Shown here: positions 6,501-51,990 of the stretch, one piece after another
Position numbering within the stretch: the stretch's first letter is position 1
Layout of the letters: every line of letters begins with the position of its first letter
Assembly: GCF_000006405.1 (NCBI RefSeq)
Contig: NW_003205208.1
Location: 72,551 to 136,550 of the forward strand
DNA from: Perkinsus marinus ATCC 50983
Lineage: Eukaryota > Perkinsozoa > Perkinsida > Perkinsidae
Reading direction: 5' to 3'
Length of the DNA: 64,000 nucleotides
The notes under the pieces: generated by a model
Database searches by the model: none
What the model saw: the letters and a program-made list of their open reading frames with translations, nothing else
Told to the model about the DNA's origin: nothing
Program-made: the position numbers and the translations under genes

Positions 6501-6850
6501 TAAAGAACTCTCTCCAAAAAATGAGCAGTTCCTGAGGAAAAAAAAATTTTTTTCCGAAAAAAAAATAATTTTACCGTTAGACTCTTTAGTTTCATATCTA
6601 GCACCGGCGTCAATCCACAAACCAACTGTCGCGGAATCCGTATAAGAAAATTGAGTGGCGACTCTCATACCATTCGGAAGTCTCGTAACCTGACATGAAA
6701 TGAATCTTACCAAGGCGAACCTCAAGATACCTGGGTTGGTGACACGTTGTGCATCTCAGTGGTGACAGTGGAGCCCCAGTAGTAGCTCCTCCTCGACTGA
6801 GTCCACAAACCATAAAGAGGACGACGGCAAAGGCAGCGGGTAGCCAACAT
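3533..6850 (-). CDS. Mitochondrial processing peptidase beta subunit (M16 family), 13 exons
   Basis: MPP-beta removes targeting peptides from imported mitochondrial precursors, and in many eukaryotes it is also a core subunit of complex III. The start at 6850 follows an in-frame stop and gives a basic targeting peptide ([14 protein letters not shown]). I place exons at 6850-6731, 6689-6575, 6531-6405, 6364-6265, 6017-5914, 5681-5540, 5493-5408, 5355-5228, 4814-4740, 4692-4600, 4463-4350, 3971-3879 and 3660-3533. Together they total 1425 nt (474 residues), the usual family length. Recognisable blocks are [50 protein letters not shown] and a family-typical C-terminus ending RRQTWWWRY. The zinc motif reads HFLER where HxxEH is expected, so one histidine ligand is Arg. 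Its twelve introns include members of five shared intron families. Confidence 0.93.
3696..3864. mobile_element. MITE-2 copy in MPP intron 12
   Basis: The copy begins TAGTGTTGGAG and ends TTTTCCCACACTG, with the internal AATTTCCTCAGAATTTTC and CACCAACACATGTAG blocks. It forms most of the 218-nt intron 3878-3661. Confidence 0.65.
4907..5036. mobile_element. MITE-2 copy in MPP intron 8
   Basis: This partial copy has ATATGTTCGC, AGAAATGTACAGAAACCAAT, AATTTCCTCAAAAATTTC and a terminal TTTTCCCACACTG. Confidence 0.6.
5356..5407 (-). mobile_element. GTGGCGCGTGACG-type intron, 52 nt (MPP intron 7)
   Basis: The intron contains TTTTGTGGCGCGTGACG followed by a T-run. Nearly the same block occurs in introns at 35313-35354 and just upstream of the exon starting at 49815, and in reverse orientation at 22182-22233. 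The flanking exons join as [13 protein letters not shown]. Confidence 0.75.
5494..5539 (-). mobile_element. GCGGAGCGAAGC-type intron, 46 nt (MPP intron 6)
   Basis: The intron begins GTAGGCGGAGCGAAGCG, and removing it joins KE to AEKKFAN in frame. The same GCGGAGCGAAGC core, in reverse orientation, sits near the 5' end of introns at 22461-22504 and 46396-46445. Confidence 0.7.
5712..5793 (-). mobile_element. TGGAGTTTCACC element (MITE-1), within MPP intron 5
   Basis: The copy runs from a CTCACCCTAG end to GAGTGAAACTCCA and carries the shared ACTTCACGTAAA and internal GAGTATTAC blocks. It makes up much of a 232-nt intron, while the non-element introns of the same gene are about 40 nt. Confidence 0.65.
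6019..6246. mobile_element. CAGTGTTGG element (MITE-2), fills MPP intron 4
   Basis: One end reads CAGTGTTGGGG with the shared CTCAGCTGAGCTCAGGAG core. The other carries ACATGTGCATATTTTCCCACAC. The central ACAGAAACCAATGAGAATTTCC block appears twice, suggesting an internal duplication. The element accounts for nearly all of the 247-nt intron 6264-6018. Confidence 0.7.
6690..6730 (-). mobile_element. Hairpin-type introner, 41 nt (MPP intron 1)
   Basis: The intron separates exons encoding NVSPTQ and VTRLPNGM. It opens with GTATCTTGAGGT and contains GTAAGATTC, the inverted arms shared with introns at 10.3, 30.4, 34.0-35.0, 45.4 and 48.0 kb. Relative to the 34.0-35.0 kb copies it is in reverse orientation. 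Confidence 0.75.
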
Positions 6851-9188: not shown

Positions 9189-10062
9189 GAGAAAAAGTAA
9201 CTTGCTAAAATATGCGTAAACTTTTTTTTTCCAAAATTATCATAAACTCAGGAAATTAGGAATAGTAACAAATACGTTTATAAAAGTCGAATCGTAAATT
9301 ATTATTTTAAGGAATGGAAGTGTGAGAAAAAGATATGCACATGATCAACTACATGTGTTGATGAAAATATGAGAAAAATTTTGGGAAATCCTTATCGATT
9401 TTTCTGCACTTCTACCCTAGTAATTCGAGGAAAGGAAGCACTTAGCAGTTGAGAGTTGATAAAAACTAGCTGCCCGCGTCGCTTCGCTCCGGGGAATCTC
9501 TAGCTCTTACGGAGGGGGGTTATAGTGCATTTCCTGCATGGTTTTTGCACTTGGTTTGTTATGAAAGTAAAGTGTGGACTCCACAGTGTGGAGTAATAGT
9601 TGAAGGTTTCGTTTGGGTGGAAGAGTACTCACATACGATCGCCAAATGGTTGCAAATTTGCACGAACTGCGTGAGTACACAAATTGTCTAACTGCAAGAA
9701 GTGCAAGAAAACTTGATGAAATTACGCACGATGTAGAATTGGGAATGCGTTGAGAAGAGTAGAATTGTACTGTTGGGAGGCTTTTAGAATTATTAAATAT
9801 AAATCAACTCATAAGAGGGACACTTGCTGAGAGTATAAGAGCAAGTAATGAGAATTTGTGGAAGAAATTTGAAAATGTGAGATTTTGACGCACGATTATA
9901 GCCGAGTAGCATAAAAGTATTAATAAAATGATCTGAAAAAAGGCGGAGCGAAGTTTTGTCAAACAGCGGAGCGAAACGATTCAGGAGTACATTTTTTGTC
10001 AATTCAGTGCCGCTACTACTAAGCTTCTACATCAGTTACATTACTGTTCTTTTACTTCCTCT
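9189..10062. other. Intergenic, no supported gene
   Basis: The stretch is A/T-rich. GCTTCGCTCCG-type motifs occur at about 9481, 9942 and 9966, the same core seen in one intron family. I see nothing else. Confidence 0.5.
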
Positions 10063-10832
10063 TTGAAGACAATGACCAAGTTGGTCGTAGTCGTTCTACC
10101 TCTTATCTGCTCGTTACTTGTTATATTCCAAGGATGTGCGTCAACTCGGTCCAACTTCGTACCGGTTACTCCTGACACTTCCTCTCCAAATCATATTACC
10201 ACTACGGCAAGTCCATGGAGTGCTACTCCTGGTGAGACTACGACTACATCGCCGGGCTCTCCTAGTGATGATACCAGCAGTAGTAGTCCGACTACACGGA
10301 CGACTCCGACGACTGACAGTAGGACCTATTCTGTATCTTATTATCGTGAACCTAAGATCCTCTTAGATACGCCCTATACGTGTGATTCTGCGACGGCCGC
10401 TATTGTCGGCACTTACCGAGGCTCCTTCGACGGTAGCAGCACCCAAGGGGTTTCCCTTCAATTTGCCCAGTTCAAGAAAATCGGCGTCATGGCTGGTAAG
10501 TCCTCTATTAGAAATCTTGTTCTTTTCCTGCTGTAAATTTTCCATCATTTTTTTCGTATTAGCGAGGTGAGTTCAACAGAGTGGAGCGGCTATATCACTC
10601 TTATATATGTGGGAACACAACCAACTTAACAAGGTGCAATACTAGTGCCACGAATTTCGCATCCACATTAGACAGGAGGAATAATTCCGCCGAAGTTACT
10701 CTGACGAAATTTTTTGGAGGAAAGACGCAGTACATCCAAGGAGCATTGCCTATGGCCCATAGGACAATACTCATTCACAGGGACAAGCTACACGTCAGAT
10801 GTGCTTCTAACAATATAGTTCATCGAAACTAG
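10063..10832 (+). CDS. Secreted Ser/Thr-rich (mucin-like) protein, 3 exons
   Basis: The N-terminus (LVVVVLPLICSLLVIFQGCAS) is a clear signal peptide. It is followed by about 60 residues rich in Thr, Ser and Pro, a likely O-glycosylated stalk, and then a Cys-containing region with no known domain. Exons are 10063-10318, 10367-10495 and 10566-10832. The first intron (10319-10366, 48 nt) is a hairpin-type introner whose length is a multiple of three and which has no stop, so the unspliced form would also translate. The second intron ends at GCGAG, giving AGEFNRVERLYH. Targeting and composition suggest a surface or secreted protein. I do not recognise a family. Confidence 0.7.
10319..10366 (+). 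mobile_element. Hairpin-type introner, 48 nt, in frame and stop-free
   Basis: It opens GTAGGACCTATTCTGTATCT and carries the second arm GAACCTAAGATCC before CTCTTAG. The arms GTATCTTA and CCTAAGAT are the shared inverted repeat. If kept in the mRNA it would add 16 residues. Confidence 0.65.
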
Positions 10833-21883: not shown

Positions 21884-24800
21884 TCACACAAGATTCCACA
21901 AAGCATCAATCGTGTCACCATCGCGTAACCGCGCCACCGCCAGGCCCAACTCGGGACTATACACAGGCTCCCTGGCAGCTTCCAATCACCCACGTGCGCA
22001 CAGCGAAGATTTCTCCCTACCTATACCCGTCGAGCTCGCCATCAGGATGATACAGCATACTAGGATCGCCCTCTTGCTCGGGCGCCGACCCAACGCGATC
22101 AAGGAGCTTCTCAAAACCAATCTCCTCGTCGATTTCCACGTCTTCTTCGAACCGTTGTAGCGGCGCTGGGGTCGCTAGCAGCTGAAATTAGTTGTTTTGT
22201 GGCGCGTGACAGATTCCCAAGAAATGCTCTCACCTGGCCAGCACCTGAGAATGTGAAATGTTCACCCGAGGCAATGGAAAGATTCACATGAGGTCCACAG
22301 TGAAAAGATTCACATTAGGTCCACAGTACAAAGATTCACATGAGGTTCACCGGATAAAGATACACAAGAGGTCCACAGAGTGACCATCCTCACCTCCATG
22401 ATTAACATTCTGTCCTCCAATTGGCTTTTCAATCGACACTTCGACTCCGAAAATCGGCGACTGCATATCAAATGTCTAGCGGAGCGAAGCAGATTCCCAC
22501 CAACCTCTGCAAAAAGCTGATGAATCTTTTCAAGTTGTTGATGCATTCTTTTGAGTTCTTCTATGGGGTCCAGACGGAAACCCAAGACATACGCTCCAGC
22601 TGAAATCAATTGAACATGGTAAAGTTGCATAAAATTGTGTTACCGCAATTTATACAACAACAAGCGTTTCACCCCTTTCCATCAAGTCGGATGTGGATTT
22701 CGTCTCATGTCGCGCTGGAATAGTCGGTTCAGTGTTGGAGTAGGAATATATGTAATCGCTTTCCTCAGCTGCTGAGCTCAGGAGTTTCCTATACAGTGTT
22801 GGAGTAGGAATATATATAATCGCTTTCCTCAGCTGCTGAGCTCAGGAGTTTCCTATACAGTATTGGAGTAGGAATATATATAATCGCTTTCCTCAGCTGC
22901 TGAGCTCAGGAGTTTCCTATACAGTGTTGGAGTAGGAATATATGTAATCGCTTTCCTCAGCTGCTGAGCTCAGGAGTTTCCTATACAGTGTTGGAGTAGG
23001 AATATATGTAATCGCTTCCCTCAGCTGCTGAGCTCAGGAGTTTCCTATACAGTGTTGGAGTAGGAATATATGTAATCGCTCTCCTCAGCTGCTGAGCTCA
23101 GGAGTTTCCTATACAGTGTTGGAGTAGGAATATATGTATTCGCTTTCCTCAGCTGCTGAGCTCAGGAGTTTCCTATACAGTGTTGGAGTAGGAATATATG
23201 TATTCGCTTTCCTCAACTGAGCTCAGGAGTTTATATAAGGATTAGCGTAGGAATGTACAGTGAAAACCAATGAGAGTTTCCTTAAAATTTTCATATCGTC
23301 GGCCACACATGTAGTTCGCCATGTGCGTATTTTTCCACACTGATTCGGATTCGCAACAGATTCACTCGAGGATTAAAATAAATACAGCAGTTGTTGCATG
23401 CTGTAATAATTGAAAAATAGTAAAAAGTAATAAATGCAAAATTGCATAATTTTGTAATCATTCAACGAAAAAAACTTCTTCGAGATGGATGGGGTACACG
23501 AGTATACCATAAATTTGCCAAATATCGTTCCTTCGCCCACGCACACCCTCGAGAATCGGCATAAAGGCACTATACGACTACACAGGGTGCCGAGTTGAGG
23601 AGAAGCTATCATATACCCTTAGAAAGCCCTCTTCGGGATCTACATCTTATTCATCGAATGTAATGGTGCAGAGGCGTCGGTGACACCCTGTAGATGTGTA
23701 TGATATAGGCAAACATGAATACATATAGTTCGCTTACCTCCTCGAAAGGTATTCACAACCAATGCCTTGCCGAATTTAGAGTTTTTCAACGACACCGAGC
23801 GCTGAAAATCCACAATCATGGTAATCTCATGAATGAGCATTACGATCTGTATATAGGGCATCGATACGTTGAATGACTCGGCCAAAGCGGCGTACCACAC
23901 CGCGCGCACCTTCATCCGAATTCGATGATCACACACCATAGACTTACATTAGTGATGACCATGGTGCCGAGGTTGCCTTGATCAGTTGAGAGGTTCCACA
24001 CTCCGGCAATTGTGTCGTACATTTTTTCGCCCGGCAGCAGAACGAGTTCTTGCTCGCGCACGATGGAGGCTCTTGAGTTGAACTCAGTGTGACGAGAAAA
24101 TATGAAAATTGTGAGGAAATTTTCAGATATCATTGTTGTTGATTTCTTTATGTTCCTTGATACGAATTTCTTTGATTAGTGAGGAAACTCCTCTAAGCTC
24201 AGCTGAGGAAAGCGAACACATATTTCTACTCCAACATCGGTCACTCGTTTGCGAGTCATCACCTTAGAGTGAGCTCTCGATAGAGGCGTGACGTGTCGTA
24301 CGCTTTATACACAGATTGAATCGTGGTGAAAATACGAGGTGAATAATAAACCAACGAAGTGAAGATAAACTCAAACCTCTGCCCGGCGTACCTGACTTGG
24401 GAGAAATAGTCTGCCCAGTGTTGGAATATATTTTCATAACACACGATTAAGAGTAGAAGTGAATAGAAACCAGCAAGAATTTCCCAGAATTTTCATATTT
24501 CGATAACAATAATTATAGTGAAATATATAAAAATATAAATGAAAATTAGGAGTTCGAGAAAAATATAACAAATAAATAGCCGACGCATTCATCAAGGGGA
24601 GGGGGGGTCTGGGGGCCCACTTCTTCACCGTCGATACAGCGGAAGATCGCGGCAAATCGCACTAGGTAGTGACATTCACGGGTGGTGAATCCCAGGCTAT
24701 ACCATAATAATGGCAACTACGCCTGGTTCGAAGGGTGCCGCTCCAGAAGAAGAAGATATAGTCGACGGAATAGAATCAGTGAAACACAACTATGATATGA

Positions 24801-28678: not shown

Positions 28679-29202
28679 TTTAATGCACTACAACGACAAT
28701 AACAGTCTAATAGCAGCGACGAGCTTAAGAGCCATGCTCAGCAACTTAGTCTTCACTTCGCGCGCGCCCATCTAATCGATAAGAAAACTCACCAAAGATT
28801 CTATCGAACGGAGTAATAGTATGGGAATCTGCGCAGCTTGTCTAGCAAACGAGATAGAAGATTCATGCAATCCTACTATTCTTCCTCACAAGCACCCCTC
28901 GTGCCGAAGTCGACTTGAGACTGATGAACTCTCCTCGACGTTTATACCCGAGTAAAAACGTTGCTGAAACGATTTTGTCTCGGAGGTGGTGCCAGCAAAC
29001 GACCACAGAGGGATTGAAAACTCGCCCTTTTTAATGGTGTATTCTATTGTTGATTATTCAACTCGCACTCATTAAAGTACTTCACTGGGAAAATAATGTT
29101 GTGCATTTAGGTCAATTCTATTGTGGAGTTTTTCGTGCATCTCGTTGGTGGTCGGATGGAGAGAAAGTAAGGTGGTTTGGGCGGAGGAGGAGGAGGGATA
29201 GT

Positions 29203-29248
29203 ATCTTGAGGTTGAGCATGCAAGATTCAAAATAGGTCCGGATAGGGT
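29203..29248 (+). mobile_element. Hairpin-type introner upstream of the PDZ-like gene
   Basis: It reads GTATCTTGAGGTTGAGCATG, then AAGATTCAAAATAGGTCC, and ends GGATAG. This is the full element in reverse orientation with GT and AG at its ends, probably a 5' UTR intron. Confidence 0.6.
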
Positions 29249-29298
29249 ACATCGACCGATTATCGATCAACAGCTCATATTGTTAACAACTTTTACAA

Positions 29299-30691
29299 AT
29301 GGGAAACACACTCGCGTCTATCGAGTCCGACCCGAGGGTCTCCAGGCTAGAGACTTTCAGTAGCAACATGTTCGACCAGTGCTGCCGACGACCCGACTCT
29401 TCCGAGTGGCTTAATGAAGTTACAGTAGTGGCAGACAATGGTAATGATATTCATACCACACCAAAGGCAACTCCTACGATCGTCGCTACGCCAAGTACTC
29501 CCTCTATCATTGGAAAGCAGGAGGAAGGTAATACATAAGCAAAGACCTCCAACCGGTAGTGCTGATCTCAGGTCGATCAGTAGGTGGAGTAGAAGACAGG
29601 GAAGTAACGCAAACTGTAGAGGTAGGCCCTTTCGAAACAGACGTCTACGTCCACTGCCTCTTGCTTACTTCATTTCTCCGTAAAAATTATCTGAGGAGCT
29701 CGGGTGTTTCAGAGGTCGCATTATGCATGTGTTTGTGGCGAGAGGACAAATCTGAGGAAATTTTATGAAATTCTTGCTGGTTATTTGTACACTAATTCTA
29801 CTTTAATTTGCCGACTTCTGTAATGAGCTCTAGAAACTCCTGATCTTGGCTGAGGAAAGTGAACATACATTCCCACACTGCTTCTGTGCTGAAGAGGAAA
29901 CCCGAACGAATCTCACAAGATGTCTCGGCTCGAAAATTATTATCAAAATAAACGGCATTCGAAGTGAATTGAAGTTGAGTTGATGATGGAGTTTTACTCT
30001 TTGATCGATTGGGTTATGAAACGAAACTGTCAATGACTGGAATTATCAATTTCTTGTCAGTGTTGAAGTATATGTTTGGTTTTCTGAGCTGACTTCAGGA
30101 GTTTCTGCATTACCATGAAAATTCACACACGGTTTAGGTTAGAAGTGTACAACTTGTTATCATTGTTGTACAAATTGCTTTGCTATTGATTACTCCTATA
30201 CTAGAAAAACCGGCAGTAATTTCCTGTTGCATAAGCGACAATTTGTTTTACATTATCAGATCACAGCGTTCGAAGGTGTGTTAGAGGAAGACCATGATGA
30301 CGATGTAGCGGATGAGCGAGAAGGGGCTGCCGACGAGGACATAGAAGCGGACTGTTTCAAGATTGACATCCAGGTAGTATCTTATGTTCACCTGAGTAAG
30401 ATATAAAATAGGTCCGCTTTTTGTCAGAGGATACCTGGTGTTCGTCTCGGTATAGATGTGGACCATAGCGATCCTCGATGGTTGGTGGTGGATCGAGTTA
30501 CGCCGGAGGGATCTATTGATCTTTGGAATAGAAAAGCTCCTCCGGGACAGAAACTTCAGAAAGGCGACATTATTGTACGTGTGAATGACGTGCGAATGGA
30601 CGCGATGCGCATGGTAGAACAATGTCAAGCATCTAGTGTACTCCATATGTGGGCTAAACGACCTAAGCTCATCCGTTCCTTATCGAATTGA
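29299..30691 (+). CDS. Putative N-myristoylated PDZ-like protein, 4 exons
   Basis: The start MGNTLASIES fits an N-myristoylation signal (Gly2, Ser/Thr at position 6-7). A low-complexity Thr/Pro stretch and an acidic stretch (LEEDHDDDVADEREGAADED) follow. The last exon encodes a PDZ-like unit: IPGVRLGIDVDHSDPRWLVV, then VTPEGSID, then LQKGDIIVRVNDVRM. Exons are about 29299-29527, 29567-29601, 30261-30373 and 30428-30691; the junctions at 30373/30428 are firm. A membrane-attached scaffold is the natural reading, but the partner is unknown. The intron at 30374-30427 is a hairpin introner. Confidence 0.7.
30374..30427 (+). mobile_element. Hairpin-type introner, reverse orientation, 54 nt
   Basis: It opens GTAGTATCTTATGTTCACCT, has the second arm AGTAAGATATAAAATAGGTCC, and ends TTTTTGTCAG. 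The flanking frames join as KIDIQ-RIPGVRLG. Confidence 0.8.
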
Positions 30692-33227: not shown

Positions 33228-36166
33228 ATGTTACTATTGCGACTGCAATTGTTTTTCTACAGCCTGGCATGTGCAGCTGTGGTCAATGATGAAAGCAAAG
33301 CTCTTAAGTTGATCTCACAGACAGCTCACTCCGGCCAGTCGGTTCGAGAGGTGGTGACACCAGAGGAAATGGAGAAGTGGATCAAACAGCAATGGTGACA
33401 CCGCTATCACCATTCGCTGTGCTCGTTTGACAAGTCGAGATTTATGATATATGGGGGTCTATTAGAAGCTCAAGCTTAATGGACTCGAATTGAGCTAGTA
33501 CTGTCCAATCGAATCGTATCAAACATTATACGGTACAGTTGTCTAATACTGCTTGTAGTAACTAGCGTTCGAGAACTGTTCCCCATTGTAGGATGTACTA
33601 TTTTTCAAAACACTATTCGCATAACTCAGCTCGATTGTTCAGGTGGGATGCTGCCTTAGCCGCTATTAAATTGGATCACGAACAACAACAGCAATCTAGA
33701 GGAAGCGGCGGGAAGCGAGTTGATTATTTTGGGCCACCTGTGCGGAAGGCCGTACGGGAGATCAAAGCGCGAGGGGAGGAGCTGGTCAGGAGTCTCGACC
33801 AGAATTACTTTAAGCCACAGAGGGTCGCTCCGGCGTTCCAGTGGGCTCAGAATGATACCGCGGTATTTGTCAATGTTAAATTTACGAGGAGATGGAACGC
33901 GCCGGGAGCACTCGATATTAAAGATCCGCAAGTTAATATAACAAGGAGTAAAATCGAAGTGAAGGCTATAGGAGAACATTCTGGTAAGGTCTAGAAGTGG
34001 ACCTGTTTCGTATCTTACGCTTGGGACCTCAAGATTCTCAGGCAAAAAACACGAGTATATACTGAAACTGAGTTTTTTCGACGAGGTTGATCCGACGGCG
34101 AGCAAATGGGCGATGGCTTCGGTGGGGAAGCTCTCAGCTACTCTTGTTAAAGCGAATCGGAGAAGTATGTGAATCTTGAGGTTGACTTTAAAAGATTCGG
34201 ATGTGGTCAGGTAAATGGCCACGACTGTTAGTGTCGAAGGAAAAGAAAGTGAATAACATGCACTACTGGATGGACTTTGCTGAAATTCATGAGGAGAGTC
34301 TTAAAGCTTTGCCGACTCCTAAAAATAGTGTCGTCACATGCCGTAGTGTGAAGAAGGCTTATTGCCTCAGGGAAGATAAATGTGTTAAGAGCTGCGCTGA
34401 CGACTGTGAAGGTGAGAAGATAAGTATTATTTTATCGTATCGAATTAGTGGCGCGGTTAGGGCACGTGTTTATTAACCTAAATATCCGAAGTTCGATTCC
34501 TGGTAGAGACATTTCATCGGCAGGTAAAATGCTTACTGGACCAGATGGGAGATGTTTTGGCAAGCCACAAGAAGAGGTCTCCGGTATCAACTTCACGGAC
34601 GTAGATCCTACACAAGGGTATGTCAGCGGAATCGTGGAGGTACCCAACCTGTTTTGTATCTTACTCGCTTGGACCTAAGATATTTTCCGAATCAGGTCAA
34701 CTCCACTGCCACTTTCGGTGATGCCGAATTTTTCTTAATATATTTTCTCAACATGGACAATCAGAAGCTCTCCGGCGAGCCCATACTGAAAATAAAAAAC
34801 CCCAAAAACCTCGGGACGCAACTATTCGGGAAGTTACCAGAGTCGACGCCCATTCCTGAAAATGCCAGCAAAATAATTGCAATAGCGGCAAATTTGGCTT
34901 TTGGTGAAGCAGAAGAACGAGGAGAGTTCGATACCATCCCTCTATTAGATTTGGCAATACCTATGCACGCACCAACAGTGAGGGAGAAATTTGGCATACA
35001 AGTGAACCTGGTTTGTATCTTAGGCGGTCGACCTCCAAGATATTTCCCCAGAGGTTGGCCAGTTAGGAGGCGATGTGGAGATATCTTTTGCGCACGCTAA
35101 AGATTCTTCGTCTTCTCCCTCTGTGGATTTCTATAATCTCTATTGGGGAAAGAGCACAGCGACTTGTGAGCGCCTTGCTGGCGATAAAAGTTTAATCGCG
35201 CGCGTGCGTGCTAATGGTGCCGACATTCAAAAATATCACATCGAAAACTCCATCGTCATAGAGAAGGGAGCTCAAAGTATTCTAGCCTTCAGTGAGCATG
35301 AGAACACTCAAGGTGAGTTAATTTCGTGGCGCGTGACGGAAATATAATATTCAGGTCACCATCCTAGCAAAGGGGAGCTGATCAGCTTGTGTGGTATCTG
35401 GCCAATCAAAGATCGGCACTTCCCAAGGACCTCCCCCGAAAGTCTTTCAGTCAACAACACGACTTTTCTCGGTGGTCAGTTCACAGGCGAGGTCGTCCTC
35501 AGTAGAGCTCCACGGGAAAATGAAATCGAGGAAGAGGCCACAGCGTACACTCTATGGTGGGCTGATAAAAATTACAATAAACTCAGTAAGGGCTCGGAGG
35601 CTCCGCGTTGGAGGTATATATCAATGTCAGGTCTATTGGACTCTGGTGATATAGAAGATATGAAGGTTGCCACAGAACTCAGGTGAGCAACAGCTTGAAA
35701 ATCATACTACATCTATTCAATCGAAATAGTATCATGAACAATCTTGTCGGCTTTCCTTGCAATTCGAGTGAATTTCCTCCGTATTCCTGAATGAGAGCTT
35801 CTGATTGTACTCGCAAACAGTGTTGGAATGTATGTTTGCTTCCCACACTACTCCATGCCTCAAGAAGGAGTACACAAGAAATTCCTCCAGGATACTCTTT
35901 CTTGTTGTCAGCAAGTGTAATTGACCATATGCATATTTTCCCACACAGCTCGGAAGTCACTACTGACTTTAGATTTTCCTACGACCGAATACAAGCTCCC
36001 GAGGGTGTGGCAAAGATATGCGCTTTCATGAGAAATGATCTCGGAGAAGGTCGAAGAGTAAGTTCAAGTTCATAAATTCGCACTAATTCTAAGGACTTGT
36101 GTTGTTCAGGGCGCTTGCGCGGCGATTGTGCAGGAAGAAACAGAAACACATAATTCTGAGCTCTAA
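33228..36166 (+). CDS. Secreted/ER protein with a CS (p23-like) domain, 10 exons
   Basis: Exon 1 gives a signal peptide (MLLLRLQLFFYSLACAA). Exons are 33228-33394, 33643-33983, 34042-34164, 34211-34411, 34524-34639, 34696-35001, 35054-35312, 35355-35682, 35949-36059 and about 36110-36166. A CS-like beta-sandwich spans FQWAQNDTAVFVNVKFTRRW through ITRSKIEVKAIGEH to ALDIKDPQV and KWPRLLVSKE, about residues 90-230. A Cys-rich linker (CRSVKKAYCLREDKCVKSC) follows, then a 500-residue region of unknown fold, probably more beta domains. p23/CS domains usually act as Hsp90 co-chaperones in the cytosol, so one behind a signal peptide is unusual. Six of its introns belong to shared families: four hairpin, one tRNA-like and one GTGGCGCGTGACG. 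Confidence 0.75.
33984..34041 (+). mobile_element. Hairpin-type introner, forward
   Basis: After the donor comes GTGGACCTGTTTCGTATCTT and then GGACCTCAAGATTC, ending CTCAG. Frames join as GEHSG-KKHEYILK. Confidence 0.85.
34165..34210 (+). mobile_element. Hairpin-type introner, reverse, 46 nt
   Basis: It contains GAATCTTGAGGTTGAC and AAAGATTCGG. Frames join as KANRRS-KWPRLLV. Confidence 0.8.
34412..34523 (+). mobile_element. tRNA-like sequence inside an intron (sense)
   Basis: The intron holds an A-box/D-arm (TAGTGGCGCGGTTAGGGC), an anticodon-like stem GTTTA/TAAAT, and a B-box (AGTTCGATTCC) followed by TGGTAGAGACATTT. It ends TCGGCAG. The intron at about 40.56 kb ends with the closely similar GTTCAATTCCTGGCAGAGGC. 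Confidence 0.65.
34640..34695 (+). mobile_element. Hairpin-type introner, forward, 56 nt
   Basis: It reads GTACCCAACCTGTTTTGTAT through TTGGACCTAAGATATT to AATCAG. Frames join as VSGIVE-VNSTATFG. Confidence 0.85.
35002..35053 (+). mobile_element. Hairpin-type introner, forward, 52 nt
   Basis: It reads GTGAACCTGGTTTGTATCTT through CGACCTCCAAGATATT to CCCAGAG. Frames join as KFGIQ-VGQLGGDV. Confidence 0.85.
35313..35354 (+). mobile_element. GTGGCGCGTGACG-type intron, forward, 42 nt
   Basis: It reads GTGAGTTAATTTCGTGGCGC, then GTGACGG, and ends ATATTCAG. Frames join as SEHENTQ-GHHPSKG. Confidence 0.85.
35817..35948. mobile_element. MITE-2 copy whose end is the splice acceptor
   Basis: It runs from CAGTGTTGGAATGTATG to GCATATTTTCCCACACAG. 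The final CACACAG is also the 3' splice site of the following exon (SEVTTDFRFSY). Confidence 0.7.
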
Positions 36167-44885: not shown

Positions 44886-45781
44886 TCAATAATAGGGCCG
44901 AGACGGATAGCTTCCCTGAAATTGATGTCCTGCAAAGCCGTGAGGAGTATATCTGAAAGCACATGATATCCAAATCGATCACGTGATCGATTTCACTCAC
45001 CCCGAAGGTTGGTTTTGTATTTCATAGGGGTCCTGTCTACCCGCGCCAATAACATAACGACTTATCTGAGTCGGTTGATACGCCGGTTGGTACCTAGCGA
45101 AACCATCTTGCAATTTTCAGTGAACTGATTTAAACTCATTTATGGAAAATATGTATATCGTTTACACACCAGTACAGACACATTCAAAGAGTAATATTCA
45201 CAAATTTTACACTTGTTTAATAATAATTTTCATCCAACAAAAACATTGGAGTTTCACTTGTAATGCATAAAGTACACTCTCTCACCGACTCCAAATCTCG
45301 TCGATATAGAATGCGAGTTTCACATTCGCTCTAATACTAACATAATGCATAAAATTATCTATTTTCGTGGAAACCCCCTAAAATGTCGGAATTCACACTG
45401 CTTGTTAAATAATTTCATTACCGTTCAAATTTTCGTCACTAAAAGTGACACCAACCGGACCTATTCCGTATCTTCTTACCCATAACCTGCAGATATCTCT
45501 CCTTCCTGCCAACTCGCGGGTGGTGGAGGCCTCGGTGCTTCCAAGCGCATCCCTCCACTTGGTGCATAATTGTATTCAGCCGGCCGCATCATATACCTTC
45601 CCATTCTTTCATCAGCTCCCGGATACGTATTCATCACTCTAGTCGGAACATATTGAACTCCATCGAAATAATTCATCGGAATTCTCTCAAAATTTCCACC
45701 CGAAAATCTCCGATTTTTCGCTCCTTCTCTGTCGTATGGTCCTCCTGTAAATCGAGAAGACCCTTTTTTCCGACCTGACAT
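44886..45781 (-). CDS. Pro/Tyr/Gly-rich protein of unknown function
   Basis: The start at 45781 gives MSGRKKGSSRFTGGPYDREG, a basic Gly/Ser-rich N-terminus. Later parts are rich in Pro, Tyr, Gln and Gly (EYNYAPSGGMRLEAPRPPPP; YQPAYQPTQISRYVIGAGRQ; GYTPHGFAGHQFQGSYPSRP). Such low-complexity composition is common in RNA-binding or condensate-forming proteins, but no folded domain is visible. Exons are about 45781-45480, 45438-45422, 45100-45006 and 44955-44886. The intron at 45439-45479 is a hairpin introner. The upstream and downstream genes on the same strand both encode dsRBD proteins, so an RNA-related role is a reasonable guess only. Confidence 0.6.
45439..45479 (-). mobile_element. Hairpin-type introner, reverse, 41 nt
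   Basis: It reads GTAAGAAGATACGGAATAGG, then TCCGG, and ends CACTTTTAG. Frames join as EISAGYG-DENLNG. Confidence 0.7.
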
Positions 45782-46272: not shown

Positions 46273-49200
46273 TCAACTTTTTCCTTTACTACCACTCTCG
46301 CTGCTCTTCCGTCGTGCCGGATTCTCATTAGCTTGGGGAACTCCAATACTATCCAGAAACGCCGCCAATTTGAAACAAGCGTCATTTTGGGAATCCTACG
46401 CAAAAAGAAACATGCAAACAAATTCTAGCGGAGCGAAGCAACTACTTTTTTGCAATTTTTCCAATCTGATGTGAATTCCTTTTGTAATTGCGGCACCGTC
46501 ACGGTTGATTGCCAAAGACCAATTTCATCTTCCGGCCGTACCCCAGCATTTCCCAATCCTTCACTATTGAATTCTTCCGTTTTTACCGTCGAATCATTCG
46601 GACTCTCCTCTTCCTGAAAAAAACGGAGTTTCACCACCCGTTTTACGTGAAGTGGCGTAAAACTCGGTGAAAAGCGCGATATTTTCGCTACGCAATAGTC
46701 GTGAAATATATTTTTCACTAGTATTTTTCATATCACTAGGGTGGAACTGGAAAATCCGAGAAAACATCACATATCAATTTATATTCGCTCATTATAAGTT
46801 GAGTAACGATAAACATAACCGAATGAGAATTTGCCAAAAATTTCCTCAAAGTTTTCATATATATTCTCCAACGTAATCCCACAACCACATATAATACATT
46901 GCAGGTGTTTAAAATGAACGAAAATATTCAAGAATTGGTTTTTTCATAAAGTTTTCAACCTGAACCCTCAAAAAAATTCACAATTATATCAACCCTATGT
47001 GGTTTCCCATGTAGATGAGAAAATCGGGTTTCACCCGTGAAATGAAAAACACTAGTGAAAAAACATATTTTACAATTCACTTCGCGGAAAACAATCGTAT
47101 TTTCGGTCGCGGAAACATATTTTCAATACCACAACTTTCCCAAGATGCCCGTTTTATTACAATCTTGCTGCATATATGTTTCCACTCCATCACAGTAGCG
47201 CCCGCCCTATGAAGTCTTTGTCCGAAGAACCGTTGTAAGCGAATGTGAACCGATTGCAGAATATTCGCGTTCGGGTCGCCACCTGAGTGGTAAAATTTCA
47301 TGGAAAAAATATCGCGGAAAAAATCACAAAATTGAAGTTTTTTGACAAATTTCCAACTTTTCACAGGAAAAAGTACTTTGGAGGAAGAACTACTTCACGG
47401 AGAAAATCTGCTCTGCTCCAGAATTGAATATTACACTCGATTTCAATTTTCCGCGAGATTTTCGATCATATACGGAAATTTTCCGAGAATTTCCAGGAAA
47501 TTTTCCACCCACAAAATTCATTTCCACGACGAAAAAACCCGTTTTTACTACAATTTTTACACAAATTCCCACTCCCGAAAAATCTCATACGATGTCTCAG
47601 AAGATACGAATACCAACGTTACGTTTAATCCCAAATCCTTTTTTTCTCTACTACACAAATGTATCGGAAAATTTGTCGGGAATCTCTCATAAAATCATAT
47701 CCCCAAGAAATTTTCCGCCCAAAAAAAATCTCGGAAATTTTTTTTTCCGAGAAATCATCCATTCCCATTTACCATGTCGTGCTATCAAATCATCAACATC
47801 TAGTTTCAGCGTTTCAATAGCGTTCCGGGCAGCTTCGCGTTGACTGACTTTCCTCGTCGGATGCCAACATCCGATGAATTTCATAAGTCGATTATAATAC
47901 CCAACGCCGCCGTTTGCTTCCGGTATGTCCACCCGGAAGGAGACTGTGGCTCGATACTGAACATCGATCGGGCCTATTCCGTATCTTACTCACTTGAACC
48001 TAAGATACTACCTCCAACTTCTCCCCGCCAACTCCAGCTGATCGGGTTTCATATTCCCAATCGAAAAGTCCAACCCCAGGCGCGGTATTCTTATTCGTCA
48101 ACCTCTGAACTGCTCTGAAAAAAAATCACAATAATTTCGTAACTGGCGCGCGGTAATTATCTCCTACTCTTGTAAAACTGCCACCCAAGACACATGAGAA
48201 TCTCCCAGGCGTTTCAGCGCGTACGGTACAACTTCCACAGAATCAATACGTTTTTCCGCACTGCCGGGATCGAACCCACGACCATTCCCAGCAGAAACCG
48301 CCTGCTCCCCCAACTGAACTGTTCGCTTCTCTTCTCCCCTTCTAGCAGCTTCCTGTCGCCTCCTTTCCCACTCCTAACAACATAATCGATCACTCGGGCG
48401 AGCGCGATCGGCCAAGCACCTCTGTGGTCATTGTTGGCTGTACAGATGAACTTGCTTCTTGAGACTGCCAATCGTCCGACGCCTGGGAATCCAAACACCC
48501 AAGTTCGATCCTCACACATCACATTTTAAACGACGATTTTTCTCAATAGAGCTTCACCCTAGTGATATAAAAAACATATTTCACGACTACTGCATATCAC
48601 TGCGAATATCGCCTTTTTCACAGAGTATTACGCCACAGGTGAAACTCCAATATTTTTAGATCTACAAAACTAATTCTCAGGAAAATAGGATGAAAAAATT
48701 TTCCCTCCAAGAAGAAAATTTTCCAGGAATCCGAAAAATTTTCTTTTCCCCTACAAAAGCCAACTTTATTGAATTCGGAAACAGGTGAATACAAACTCGA
48801 GATAAAACAGTAAAAAATTCTGAAAATTCCCCTAAACTGCGTAAAAATTTCCCAATCGGAATTTTTCACCCCTGCCGTTTACAACCTTATCAATTTTCTA
48901 ACTCCGATTATCCATCCTAATTTTTTATCACAGCTAACGTTTCGAGGGAAATTTGCATTCCTAAAAGTTCCCCTAAACTGCGTGAAGATTTTACAATCGG
49001 AATTTTTCACCCAGCCGTTTATAACCTTATCGACTCCTCGATCTTCCATCGTGATTTCTCTCATCACAGCTTCCATAACGTTTTGAGGGAGGCAAAGCGC
49101 ATCCCAAATATCTGGCGTTGTAGTAGCGAATGATTCTGCAGTGTCGAAGTAATTTTCCTCCAAAATTCTGTTAACCTAGAGGGAAAAAATTTTTCTGAAA

Positions 49201-50439: not shown

Positions 50440-50763
50440 TTGTTTTGACTCCATTTCGTAGCATATACCATGATTGTGAACCTGTTTTGCATCTTACGTG
50501 GTCAACCTCAAGATACGCCGGCATTTTTGCGATTTCTCCCTTTACGAGATTCGAAACCCCAAAATATTCGATGATTCATTGCCGCAACTTAGCGCGCGCC
50601 CAAAAATTACTGAAAGTCGATGCAGTCCCAAGGTAGAGCTCCACATTTCGTCACACTCACTCGGAAGTATCTTAGGTTCTACGTAGTAAGATTCAAAGTA
50701 GGTCCACTGAGGGGACACTTTTACCAAATCGATCAACAGTTGTTATCTGTTCTTTATATCCTC
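50440..50763 (+). other. 5' region of adenosine deaminase with two hairpin elements and an exon-start duplicate
   Basis: A forward hairpin element lies at about 50474-50520 (GTGAACCTGTTTTGCATCTT...CCTCAAGATACG) and a reverse one at about 50665-50706 (AGTATCTTAGGTTC...AAGTAGGTCC). The 20-bp string CCCAAGGTAGAGCTCCACAT occurs at 50627 and again at 50797 inside the ADA exon. Confidence 0.7.
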
Positions 50764-51990
50764 ATGTCCAATTCATACAACTTCTTCTACTCAGCCCCCA
50801 AGGTAGAGCTCCACATCCACTTCGATGGTGCCTTCGACATGGACTTCCTCTACCAAATCGCCAAGCGCGACCTCGACCAGCTGCCCGAGTCCGTCCCCGC
50901 CCCTTGGAACGGTCCTGATGCTACCGTTACCGTCCGGTCTGCTATCGCGGCTTGCAAGTGCAAGGAGGATTTCGAGAAGATTACCTGCCTTGGTCCCGAG
51001 ACTGTTGTTGCTAAGCGACTTCAGAACGGCGGCCAGAAGGGTGCTGGGCTGGCTTGTATGCTCGACTGCTTCGCTGTGTTCACTCCTGTCGTACAAGGCA
51101 AGAGGGACGTTATCGAGGAGATGGCCTTTAAGGTCTGCGAACGTCAGTACCGTGAGAACGTCGTCTATACTGAACTCCGTTACAACCCCCATGTCCTCAC
51201 TAAGGAGGGTTCTTCTCTACCCGACGCCCGAAGCGTCGTTGAGGCTGTTACTGCTGGTATCGAGCACGGCAAGGAGGTCTTTGGTATCGACATGAATCAG
51301 ATCCTTTGTTGTATGAATCTGATGCCTGAGGTCAGTGATGAGGTCGCCGATCTCGCTATTGAGTTCAAGTCCAAGGGTGTTGTCGCTATTGACGTCGCTG
51401 CTGGCGAGACGCACTTCGAGAATGAGGACCTCAAGAAGGCTCACGTAGCCGCCTGCTTGAAAGCTGAGAAGGCCGGTCTTCGTGTCACCGTCCACGGCGC
51501 TGAGGACGGCTCGTCGACGAACTTCTGTTGTGCTGTTCGAGAGTACCATGCTGAACGCGTGGGTCACGCCTACAAGATCGCTGCCGATTCTGCGATGTAT
51601 AAGATGGCTGAGGAAACTCACACGCACATTGAGGCCTGTCCTACTTCTAGTATCTGCACGGAGGCTGTCTGTCTACCCCAAGTGCATCCAGAGAAGCCAA
51701 TTCTCGACAGTTTAGACTGGAACAAGCATCCCATCAAGAAGTTCATCGAGGATGGTCTTAGTGTGAGCATCAGCACTGACGATCCGACGGTGTTTTTGAC
51801 ACACATCACTGACGAGTTGACTATTCTTGCTGATCGGTTTGGTTTCGATGCCCATAAGGTTGGTTTGGCGGTTACTATGAATGCTATAGATAGCTGTTGG
51901 GCTTCGGTGAAAGAGAAATCCCATTATCGCGAGGTGACTTTGAAGTATTATGAAGGAGAGGCGTCCACGGTTGAAGAGAATAGCGATTGA
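50764..51990 (+). CDS. Adenosine deaminase
   Basis: ADA converts adenosine to inosine in purine salvage. The product is 408 residues and a single exon. Zinc and catalytic residues are visible: VELHIHFDGA (the HxH pair), VTVHGAED (third His plus the neighbouring catalytic Glu region; most ADAs read HAGE), the VGHAYKI and ACPTSSICT blocks, and SISTDDPTVF with the metal-binding and catalytic Asp pair. I chose ATG 50764 because MSNSYNFFYSAPKVELHIHF matches the usual distance from start to the HxH motif. An upstream in-frame ATG at 50620 would add a hairpin element and unlikely sequence. Codons strongly favour C- and G-ending forms compared with neighbours, suggesting high expression. The lack of introns is unusual for this window. 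Confidence 0.95.
   Translation: MSNSYNFFYSAPKVELHIHFDGAFDMDFLYQIAKRDLDQLPESVPAPWNGPDATVTVRSAIAACKCKEDFEKITCLGPETVVAKRLQNGGQKGAGLACMLDCFAVFTPVVQGKRDVIEEMAFKVCERQYRENVVYTELRYNPHVLTKEGSSLPDARSVVEAVTAGIEHGKEVFGIDMNQILCCMNLMPEVSDEVADLAIEFKSKGVVAIDVAAGETHFENEDLKKAHVAACLKAEKAGLRVTVHGAEDGSSTNFCCAVREYHAERVGHAYKIAADSAMYKMAEETHTHIEACPTSSICTEAVCLPQVHPEKPILDSLDWNKHPIKKFIEDGLSVSISTDDPTVFLTHITDELTILADRFGFDAHKVGLAVTMNAIDSCWASVKEKSHYREVTLKYYEGEASTVEENSD

Follow-up and report, generated by a model that had tools for sequence, protein, structure and literature searches.

An introner-like palindrome dispersed in Perkinsus marinus introns, with arms that may be kept as a double-stranded DNA site

Why should one short palindrome recur in the introns of unrelated genes and keep its arms almost unchanged? 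The question is raised by a 64,000-nucleotide stretch of the Perkinsus marinus ATCC 50983 genome (contig NW_003205208.1, positions 72,551 to 136,550 of the forward strand; hereafter the window, part of the contig that we call C227). A preliminary description of its sequence had proposed that hairpin introns of about 50 nt in six or more unrelated genes belong to one introner-like family. The account that we tentatively favor, at somewhat less than even confidence, is that the element is old, resembles an introner and has arms maintained by selection, probably in the role of a site on double-stranded DNA.

The element family and differences between its close copies

The shared core with a short loop given in the preliminary description was borne out. 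Its consensus reads GGACCTRTTTYGNATCTTAC, about five free bases and then RACCTMAAGATNC, making a palindromic element of ~39 bp. Nine copies in the window scored above 20 bits by profile, with weaker copies below that score, and the left-arm pattern matched the window 9 times compared to 0.02 expected from shuffles. A search of the genome (54.46 Mb, 347 contigs), as proposed in that description, gave a similar picture: with up to 3 mismatches the left arm matched 811 times (424 + 387) compared to 13 times (7 + 6) for the reversed pattern, and exact inverted arms, GTATCTTN{11,17}AAGATAC, occurred at 254 sites compared to 3 in the control. The arm spacing was exactly N14 in 44 of the 50 sites counted among the matches listed (254 total), a few of them being alleles of each other, and the loop varied even among copies with perfect arms. 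In 200 kb picked regardless of the element, the profile gave 16 hits of at least 6 bits (at 15 places, since one palindrome was hit on both strands) compared to 1 in reversed and 0 in simulated sequence. This extrapolates to ~4,100 copies in the genome at this threshold, or to ~2,700 from only the 10 hits above 11 bits, at least one of which sits in coding sequence and may be a chance match. Overlapping loci (L004, L006, L007 and L012) were dropped, as were arrays or duplicates (L005, L011, L014, L016, L017 and L024) from some counts, which differ in the ones left out.

The 7-bp inverted arms GNATCTT/AAGATNC (inverted repeats of 7-8 nt) are embedded in an asymmetric conserved block, and as half-sites they have a fixed repeat distance of 21 bp, or two helical turns. 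A GGACCTRTTTY-like block lay on at least one strand at 43 of 45 arm-only sites, a count biased by the retrieval of most of these loci with the left-arm pattern and by the presence of mutual alleles; in sequence not retrieved by the left arm (the window, L031-L050 and L051) it was found in 11 of 12 sites. Viral contigs gave no match to the element, and prokaryote genomes only four single matches, which we took as chance. The dispersed family is genuine in the P. marinus genome. A 39-bp sequence this frequent must have been copied, and we infer that it spread by copying like that of an introner or a miniature inverted-repeat transposable element (MITE).

Some regions are assembled twice, as allele-like contig pairs of ~95-98% identity (for example C227/C328, C52/C69, C105/C206 and C2/C281) that are probably haplotypes. 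We examined 20 allele-like or duplicate pairs of elements and excluded one, at 50668 in the window, whose C328 copy is disrupted or diverging just upstream and where misalignment had added 14 arm mismatches. Over the remaining 19 pairs, with 32 arm and 7 loop positions per element and gap columns uncounted, the arms differed at 1 of 608 positions compared to 6 of 133 in the loop, 23 of 945 in the adjacent 25 bases on each side and 71 of 2082 in the next 55 bases. Gap columns were absent from arms and loop and numbered 5 in the near and 14 in the outer flanks. When the arm mask was slid over the flanks, the mean difference was 3.07%, and never fewer than 11 differences were seen in 95 shifts. 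The Poisson probability of at most one arm difference was 1.6e-7, or 9e-4 with the expectation halved because the copies had been selected by score in one allele; for arms compared to loop, Fisher P was 1.8e-4. Removal of the two pairs that overlap coding sequence (35005 and L049 6635) left 1 difference in 544 arm positions (P of 1.2e-3 with halved expectation), and additional removal of 10322 and the tandem duplicate left 0 in 480.

Arm differences were absent from both sense (0/192) and anti (0/224) copies, as well as from copies outside coding introns (29202 and 50479). The 11 bases beyond the stem at one end, which form the GGACCTRTTTY block, were as invariant as the stem (0/209). Among more diverged duplicates, the arms had been retained and the loop changed in three cases (the first L022 element, the PDZ gene and p14); for the second L022 element, 36 of 39 positions were unchanged compared to 12 of 20 and 9 of 20 in its flanks. 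Near-invariant arms around a free loop are not what a neutrally decaying element predicts.

Element-bearing introns and mobility

Exact removal of element-bearing introns was supported by protein homology in the genes for mitochondrial processing peptidase beta (MPP-beta), a CS-domain protein, Ran, RPS25, SF3b p14 and NAC-alpha, the last four with gap-free joins at conserved positions; for the WD40-type gene the support comes from frame and a duplicate. All introns confirmed by protein homology are canonical GT-AG introns, in which the element ends lie, by eye, roughly 0-25 nt from the donor and 0-16 nt from the acceptor. The element is sense in the CS 33984, CS 34640, Ran, p14 and NAC-alpha introns and anti in those of MPP-beta, CS 34165, PDZ, RPS25 and WD40, in agreement with the earlier statement that both orientations are used. 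That statement had been coupled to a GT donor offered by either arm: GT is indeed present at both ends, but the confirmed sense introns have their donor upstream of the element. Judged from protein homology, not RNA, splicing is shown to excise the element precisely. For P. marinus introns in general, a passage of PMC3101222 gives lengths of 39-1622 bp, with the majority below 100 bp.

In the window, the exact fit of exon frames claimed in the preliminary description was upheld by homologous proteins at 6690-6730, 30374-30427, 33984-34041, 34165-34210 and 34640-34695, and by frame and GT-AG ends only at 47957-48011. Removal of 6690-6730 made the joined protein collinear with the MPP-beta chain PDB 9fq7_3A, and the join CFKIDIQ-RIPGVR across 30374-30427 was unbroken in P. 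chesapeaki P0123 (compared by eye). The CS-domain gene (33-36 kb) has a near-identical copy on C328, which aligns to P. marinus ATCC 50983 PMAR028302 with exon mismatches only at exon ends and one differing residue in a secondary match. In an open reading frame (ORF) test, 35 of 74 elements (at least 15 bits) had 50 or more open codons on each side after the best GT-AG removal, compared to 18.7% of 1,170 random positions; this test is permissive because the best splice pair is chosen. In a codon test, score 3 was reached by 18 of 61 elements compared to 11.7% of random positions. The unbiased sample gave 8 of 11 elements, two of the eight being doubtful (L047 9539, 11.3 bits, and L049 6635, 19.6 bits, in an open ABC-transporter-like frame). 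At score 0, elements resembled random positions (44/61 compared to 71%).

Target-site duplications (TSDs), which the preliminary description had suggested comparing, were not consistent in 36 full copies scanned for repeats of 2-8 bp at offsets 0-24 on both sides; over the 625 offset pairs per length, the best 4-mer offset reached 3/36 (0.14 expected) and the best 2-mer 8/36 (1.9 expected). No empty site was found at the 10 joined exon junctions searched in the genome, 9 of which had a second copy among the 40 matches listed, and each second copy spanning both sides retains an intron-sized gap. For five of the nine, the second copy was only the allele-like one on C328 (including PDZ, whose diverged paralogs matched one side only); at the tenth junction, that of p14, a diverged paralog carries both intron and element. 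Among 41 of 54 pieces searched with their flanks, no second copy lacked the whole intron or element stretch: 18 pieces had a second genomic copy across both flanks and one more across one flank, and all but one of these copies were retrieved and aligned, the remaining one being 100% identical. The pieces outside this search were the second and third of L018, those of L019, L028 and L029, the three of L049 (covered by another comparison) and five of the window (29106, 30282, 33903, 34551 and 34909; partly so covered).

All 19 compared close pairs share the element, which gives no presence/absence sign of recent mobility, and diverged duplicates of the PDZ gene, the first WD40 intron, p14 and both L022 elements retain it. 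The preliminary description had named old introns shared at the same positions by related species as the finding that would speak against recent insertion. The sharing seen here, among copies in a single genome rather than across species, goes part of the way to that finding. The element looks old rather than freshly jumping.

These data bear on the possibility that it is a classic introner, a non-autonomous DNA transposon making introns by insertion into exons, with copies alike through a fairly recent burst. Its dispersal over introns of unrelated genes, the proximity of its ends to both splice sites (by eye) and the GT at both arms are as such an element would have them. RPS25 on C217 has an intron of similar length without the element, the duplicates measuring 52 nt with it and 48 nt without, as if the element were the intron and not an addition to it. 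We nevertheless consider a classic introner unlikely: no TSD stood out, the tested junctions had no intronless copy, allele-like copies and several diverged duplicates have the element in common, and the loop is variable even where arms are perfect.

Introners are usually discussed as young insertions and as a source of new introns. Those of Micromonas and Aureococcus described by Huff et al. in 2016 are said to be short non-autonomous intron-forming elements, longer than this one and with TSDs. Short dispersed palindromes with conserved arms and a variable loop also include bacterial REP/BIME sequences and the GC clusters of yeast mitochondria, which are non-intronic. The likeness is one of form in other hosts, and we claim no homology. 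The working definition of introners in Gozashti et al. 2022 (PMC9860276) is matched by a dispersed bidirectional palindrome forming much of many GT-AG introns. According to the same paper, introners resemble our element in forming similar introns in unrelated genes with similarity close to both splice sites, in aquatic protist hosts, in having inverted repeats in some families and in lacking TSDs in many. The Perkinsus element differs in that intron gain is not demonstrated, both orientations occur, the arms are strongly constrained and copies also lie upstream of genes. The introner elements of Amoebophrya, a related alveolate lineage, are likewise repeated introns with inverted repeats giving predicted hairpins (PMC7789003); their inverted repeats measure 8-20 nt compared to 7-8 nt here, and they have non-canonical splice sites and border direct repeats of 3-5 nt, unlike the canonical GT-AG sites and the lack of a consistent direct repeat in Perkinsus. 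Literature joining introner with Perkinsus came, supplementary tables apart, to the Amoebophrya paper only, and for Perkinsus introns with palindromes nothing else was judged relevant from titles and abstract openings. The searched text of PMC9860276, which excludes its supplement, does not name Perkinsus.

From the sequence comparisons we would call the element introner-like, not a proven introner. What stands of the family proposed earlier is a dispersed palindrome, used in both directions, that makes up much of many GT-AG introns in genes unrelated to each other; we estimate its copies at a few thousand. Recent mobility and intron creation are not supported. A caution follows, namely that intron similarity and inverted repeats alone are not evidence of recent mobility.

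The possible basis of arm selection

The arms could instead act in RNA, marking donors or branch sites or forming hairpins in one class of short introns, and be conserved for splicing. Copies occur within introns and, in some genes, a short way before the start codon, which is compatible with this; the left arm holds CTTAC, a plausible branch-site motif, and in anti orientation the donor often falls at the arm or 3 nt before it (GTATCTT, GTAGTATCTT). For 6 of 8 introns, the best fold predicted for the RNA also pairs the arms with each other. The folds of these 8 introns, however, were no more stable than shuffles (z +0.6 to -1.2), and the only stem pair that clearly varies did not covary (p 0.33). 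Moreover, arms lack differences in either orientation though the two RNAs differ, the CS gene has 8 introns of which 4 are without the element, and duplicates manage without much or all of it. A splicing role is an improbable explanation of the arms. Selection for an RNA hairpin only is unlikely because folds did not exceed shuffles, covariation was absent and the block outside the stem is equally invariant. A double-stranded site fits better because the inverted half-sites lie 21 bp apart and conservation holds in both orientations. Taken together, these features make sequence-specific protein recognition of double-stranded DNA the most likely basis of arm selection. An old MITE decaying neutrally in pre-existing introns is very improbable and close to refuted by the arm comparison (1/608 compared to ~3% in flanks), in spite of the decayed duplicate copies in the second WD40 intron and Ran.

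In the account that we favor, a palindrome of ~39 bp would have spread long ago through P. marinus by introner- or MITE-like copying to an estimated few thousand copies. These now occupy short canonical spliceosomal introns, and places close to the starts of some genes, in either orientation. Intronic copies are removed precisely by splicing, as judged from protein homology, and between allele-like copies the arms stay nearly invariant while the loop drifts; a protein would bind the arms as a double-stranded DNA site. A bolder version, which we consider doubtful, is that a transposon-like palindrome colonized thousands of introns and was then domesticated, either way round, as a genome-wide intragenic DNA-binding site, its 32 arm bases being more constrained than the surrounding exons and its loop of 6-7 bases free. 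If this were true, the site might have a role in, for example, chromatin organization or transcription. The nearly invariant arms between allele-like copies suggest that intron-forming elements can be retained for function.

Several points weigh against a selected double-stranded site in an old mobile element. The arm comparison comprises only 19 pairs, including one tandem duplicate and 11 pairs from one contig pair, and every pair was selected on the profile score of a single copy. Taken by itself, the sense set gives P 0.07 with halved expectation, which leaves the pooled data as the main support for orientation independence, and some sense and anti labels follow our own reading of gene strand. 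Over eight diverged pairs, arms (left 109/152, right 79/104) did no better than their mostly exonic neighbors (327/440 and 298/393, figures lowered by misaligned stretches), because three pairs had lost much or all of the arms. The arms were lost and the intron kept in RPS25 on C217, the second WD40 intron on C243 and Ran on C217 and C142. The element is degenerate or partial in the duplicates of this second WD40 intron and of Ran, and on C142 all that the Ran paralog has is a stretch resembling the right arm, turned the other way round. The arm pairing in 6 of 8 folds is what an RNA role would need. We know of no DNA-binding protein for the motif, and several copies per gene are unusual for a regulatory site. 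Past mobility has no direct proof, in that neither an empty site nor a TSD was found and no search aimed at transposases was made.

Copies in the window and neighboring repeats

The copies in the window are collected in Table 1.

Table 1. Element copies and element-bearing introns in the window (positions are those of the window)
Feature	Position	Strand	Remarks
MPP-beta (mitochondrial processing peptidase beta) intron, 41 nt	6690..6730	-	element anti; profile match on + strand, 6701-6730
Element within open reading frame	10322..10360	+	ORF 9937-10536; proposed intron 10319-10366, 48 nt, no stop
Two neighboring degenerate left-arm units, tandem-like	22290..22374	-	weak profile hits, 8.6 and 12.2 bits
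Element ~60 nt upstream of PDZ-type gene start codon (29299)	29201..29239	-	profile
PDZ-type gene intron	30374..30427	+	element on - strand, 30377-30415
CS-domain gene intron, sense element	33984..34041	+	junction identical to P. marinus PMAR028302
CS-domain gene intron, degenerate anti element	34165..34210	+	junction NRR/SKWPRL exact vs PMAR028302; 11.2 bits
CS-domain gene intron, sense element	34640..34695	+	junction GIVE/VNSTAT exact vs PMAR028302
Corrected intron, 46 nt, ends TTAG/GCG	34978..35023	+	left arm only; downstream GCGGTCGACCTCCAAGATATTTCC coding
Proposed intron, left arm only	45439..45479	-	profile, 14.1 bits
Proposed intron, 55 nt	47957..48011	-	element on + strand, 47970-48008; frame continuous KLE/YRATVSF, GT-AG; candidate by frame alone
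Element ~250 nt upstream of adenosine deaminase start (50764)	50478..50516	+	profile
Element ~60 nt upstream of adenosine deaminase start (50764)	50667..50705	-	profile

The intron placed at 35002-35053 in the preliminary description was misplaced: its apparent right arm encodes VDLQDISPE, which is present in P. marinus and has an equivalent form in P. olseni and P. chesapeaki (PTAVDLQDISPEVGQ in P0121, equivalents in P0122 and P0123). As the right arm codes for conserved protein, the intron is 34978-35023. RPS25 is a second case of an apparent right arm being coding. At 10319-10366 the element is present, with 1 of 32 arm positions different in the C328 copy, but it lies in an open frame and may or may not be spliced, and at 45439-45479 the left arm was found and the right arm is missing. 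Further copies listed near 29203, 50474 and 50665 are real elements that lie upstream of start codons, outside coding introns. In C328 the copy at 29201-29239 has identical arms and loop despite flank differences of 6/45 and 11/110, and arms and loop of the 6690-6730 element are identical there as well. The paralog of the PDZ-type gene on C2 retains both the 30374-30427 intron and its element; its upstream element is partly degenerate.

From two of the upstream elements (29201-29301 and 50667-50766), 22 nt on comes ATCGATCAACAG, ending 24-25 nt before the start codon. A composite upstream module as a general feature was rejected: AGGTCC-N{10,40}-TCGATCAACAG is confined in the genome to two window places and one C328 copy, and the module is therefore not general. 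TCGATCAACAG itself lay within 10-40 nt of an ATG 38 times compared to 5 for the reversed control. The adenosine deaminase of the window shares 88% identity with a protein of Perkinsus olseni; upstream of its gene, L064 (C328:139650-140080) diverges abruptly from the window, as if by another insertion. A 112-nt intron at 34412-34523 contains a tRNA-like stretch (GGTTAGGGCACGTG...GTTCGATTCC), possibly a tRNA-derived short interspersed nuclear element, which was not called by Rfam or ARAGORN. Repeats ~64 bp apart at 22730-23271 form a second dispersed family, whose unit also matches near 6.0, 8.7, 11.8, 13.7, 24.2, 26.4 and 38.0 kb of the window and at other loci.

Arrays were met outside the window. 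L005:1264-1685 (C251, around 547.7-548.1 kb) holds eight left-arm elements with a period of ~55 bp. The NAC-alpha intron (L011, L016 and L017; C294 and C346) consists of arrayed left-arm units of 25 nt and measures 185 nt in one copy but 96 nt in each of two others, every unit offering one more possible acceptor; a fourth copy lies at C294:71.9 kb. Such tandem arrays of units show that local amplification can take place.

Two candidates for an empty site were discarded. A C52/C69 difference came from regions that proved non-homologous, and a 49-nt allelic difference was a local inverted duplication, not a family element. In the latter, L047:9443-9664 (C69) compared to L058 (C52:243040-243400) has a 49-nt inverted copy of adjacent sequence, giving a long palindrome that contains GTATCTT/AAGATAC. 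Elsewhere on C69, L049:2842-3048 is a repeat of ~207 bp with 20 more matches at 75-91% identity; a stretch of ~480 nt that includes it is missing from the C52 copy, and the repeat looks like an active or recent MITE.

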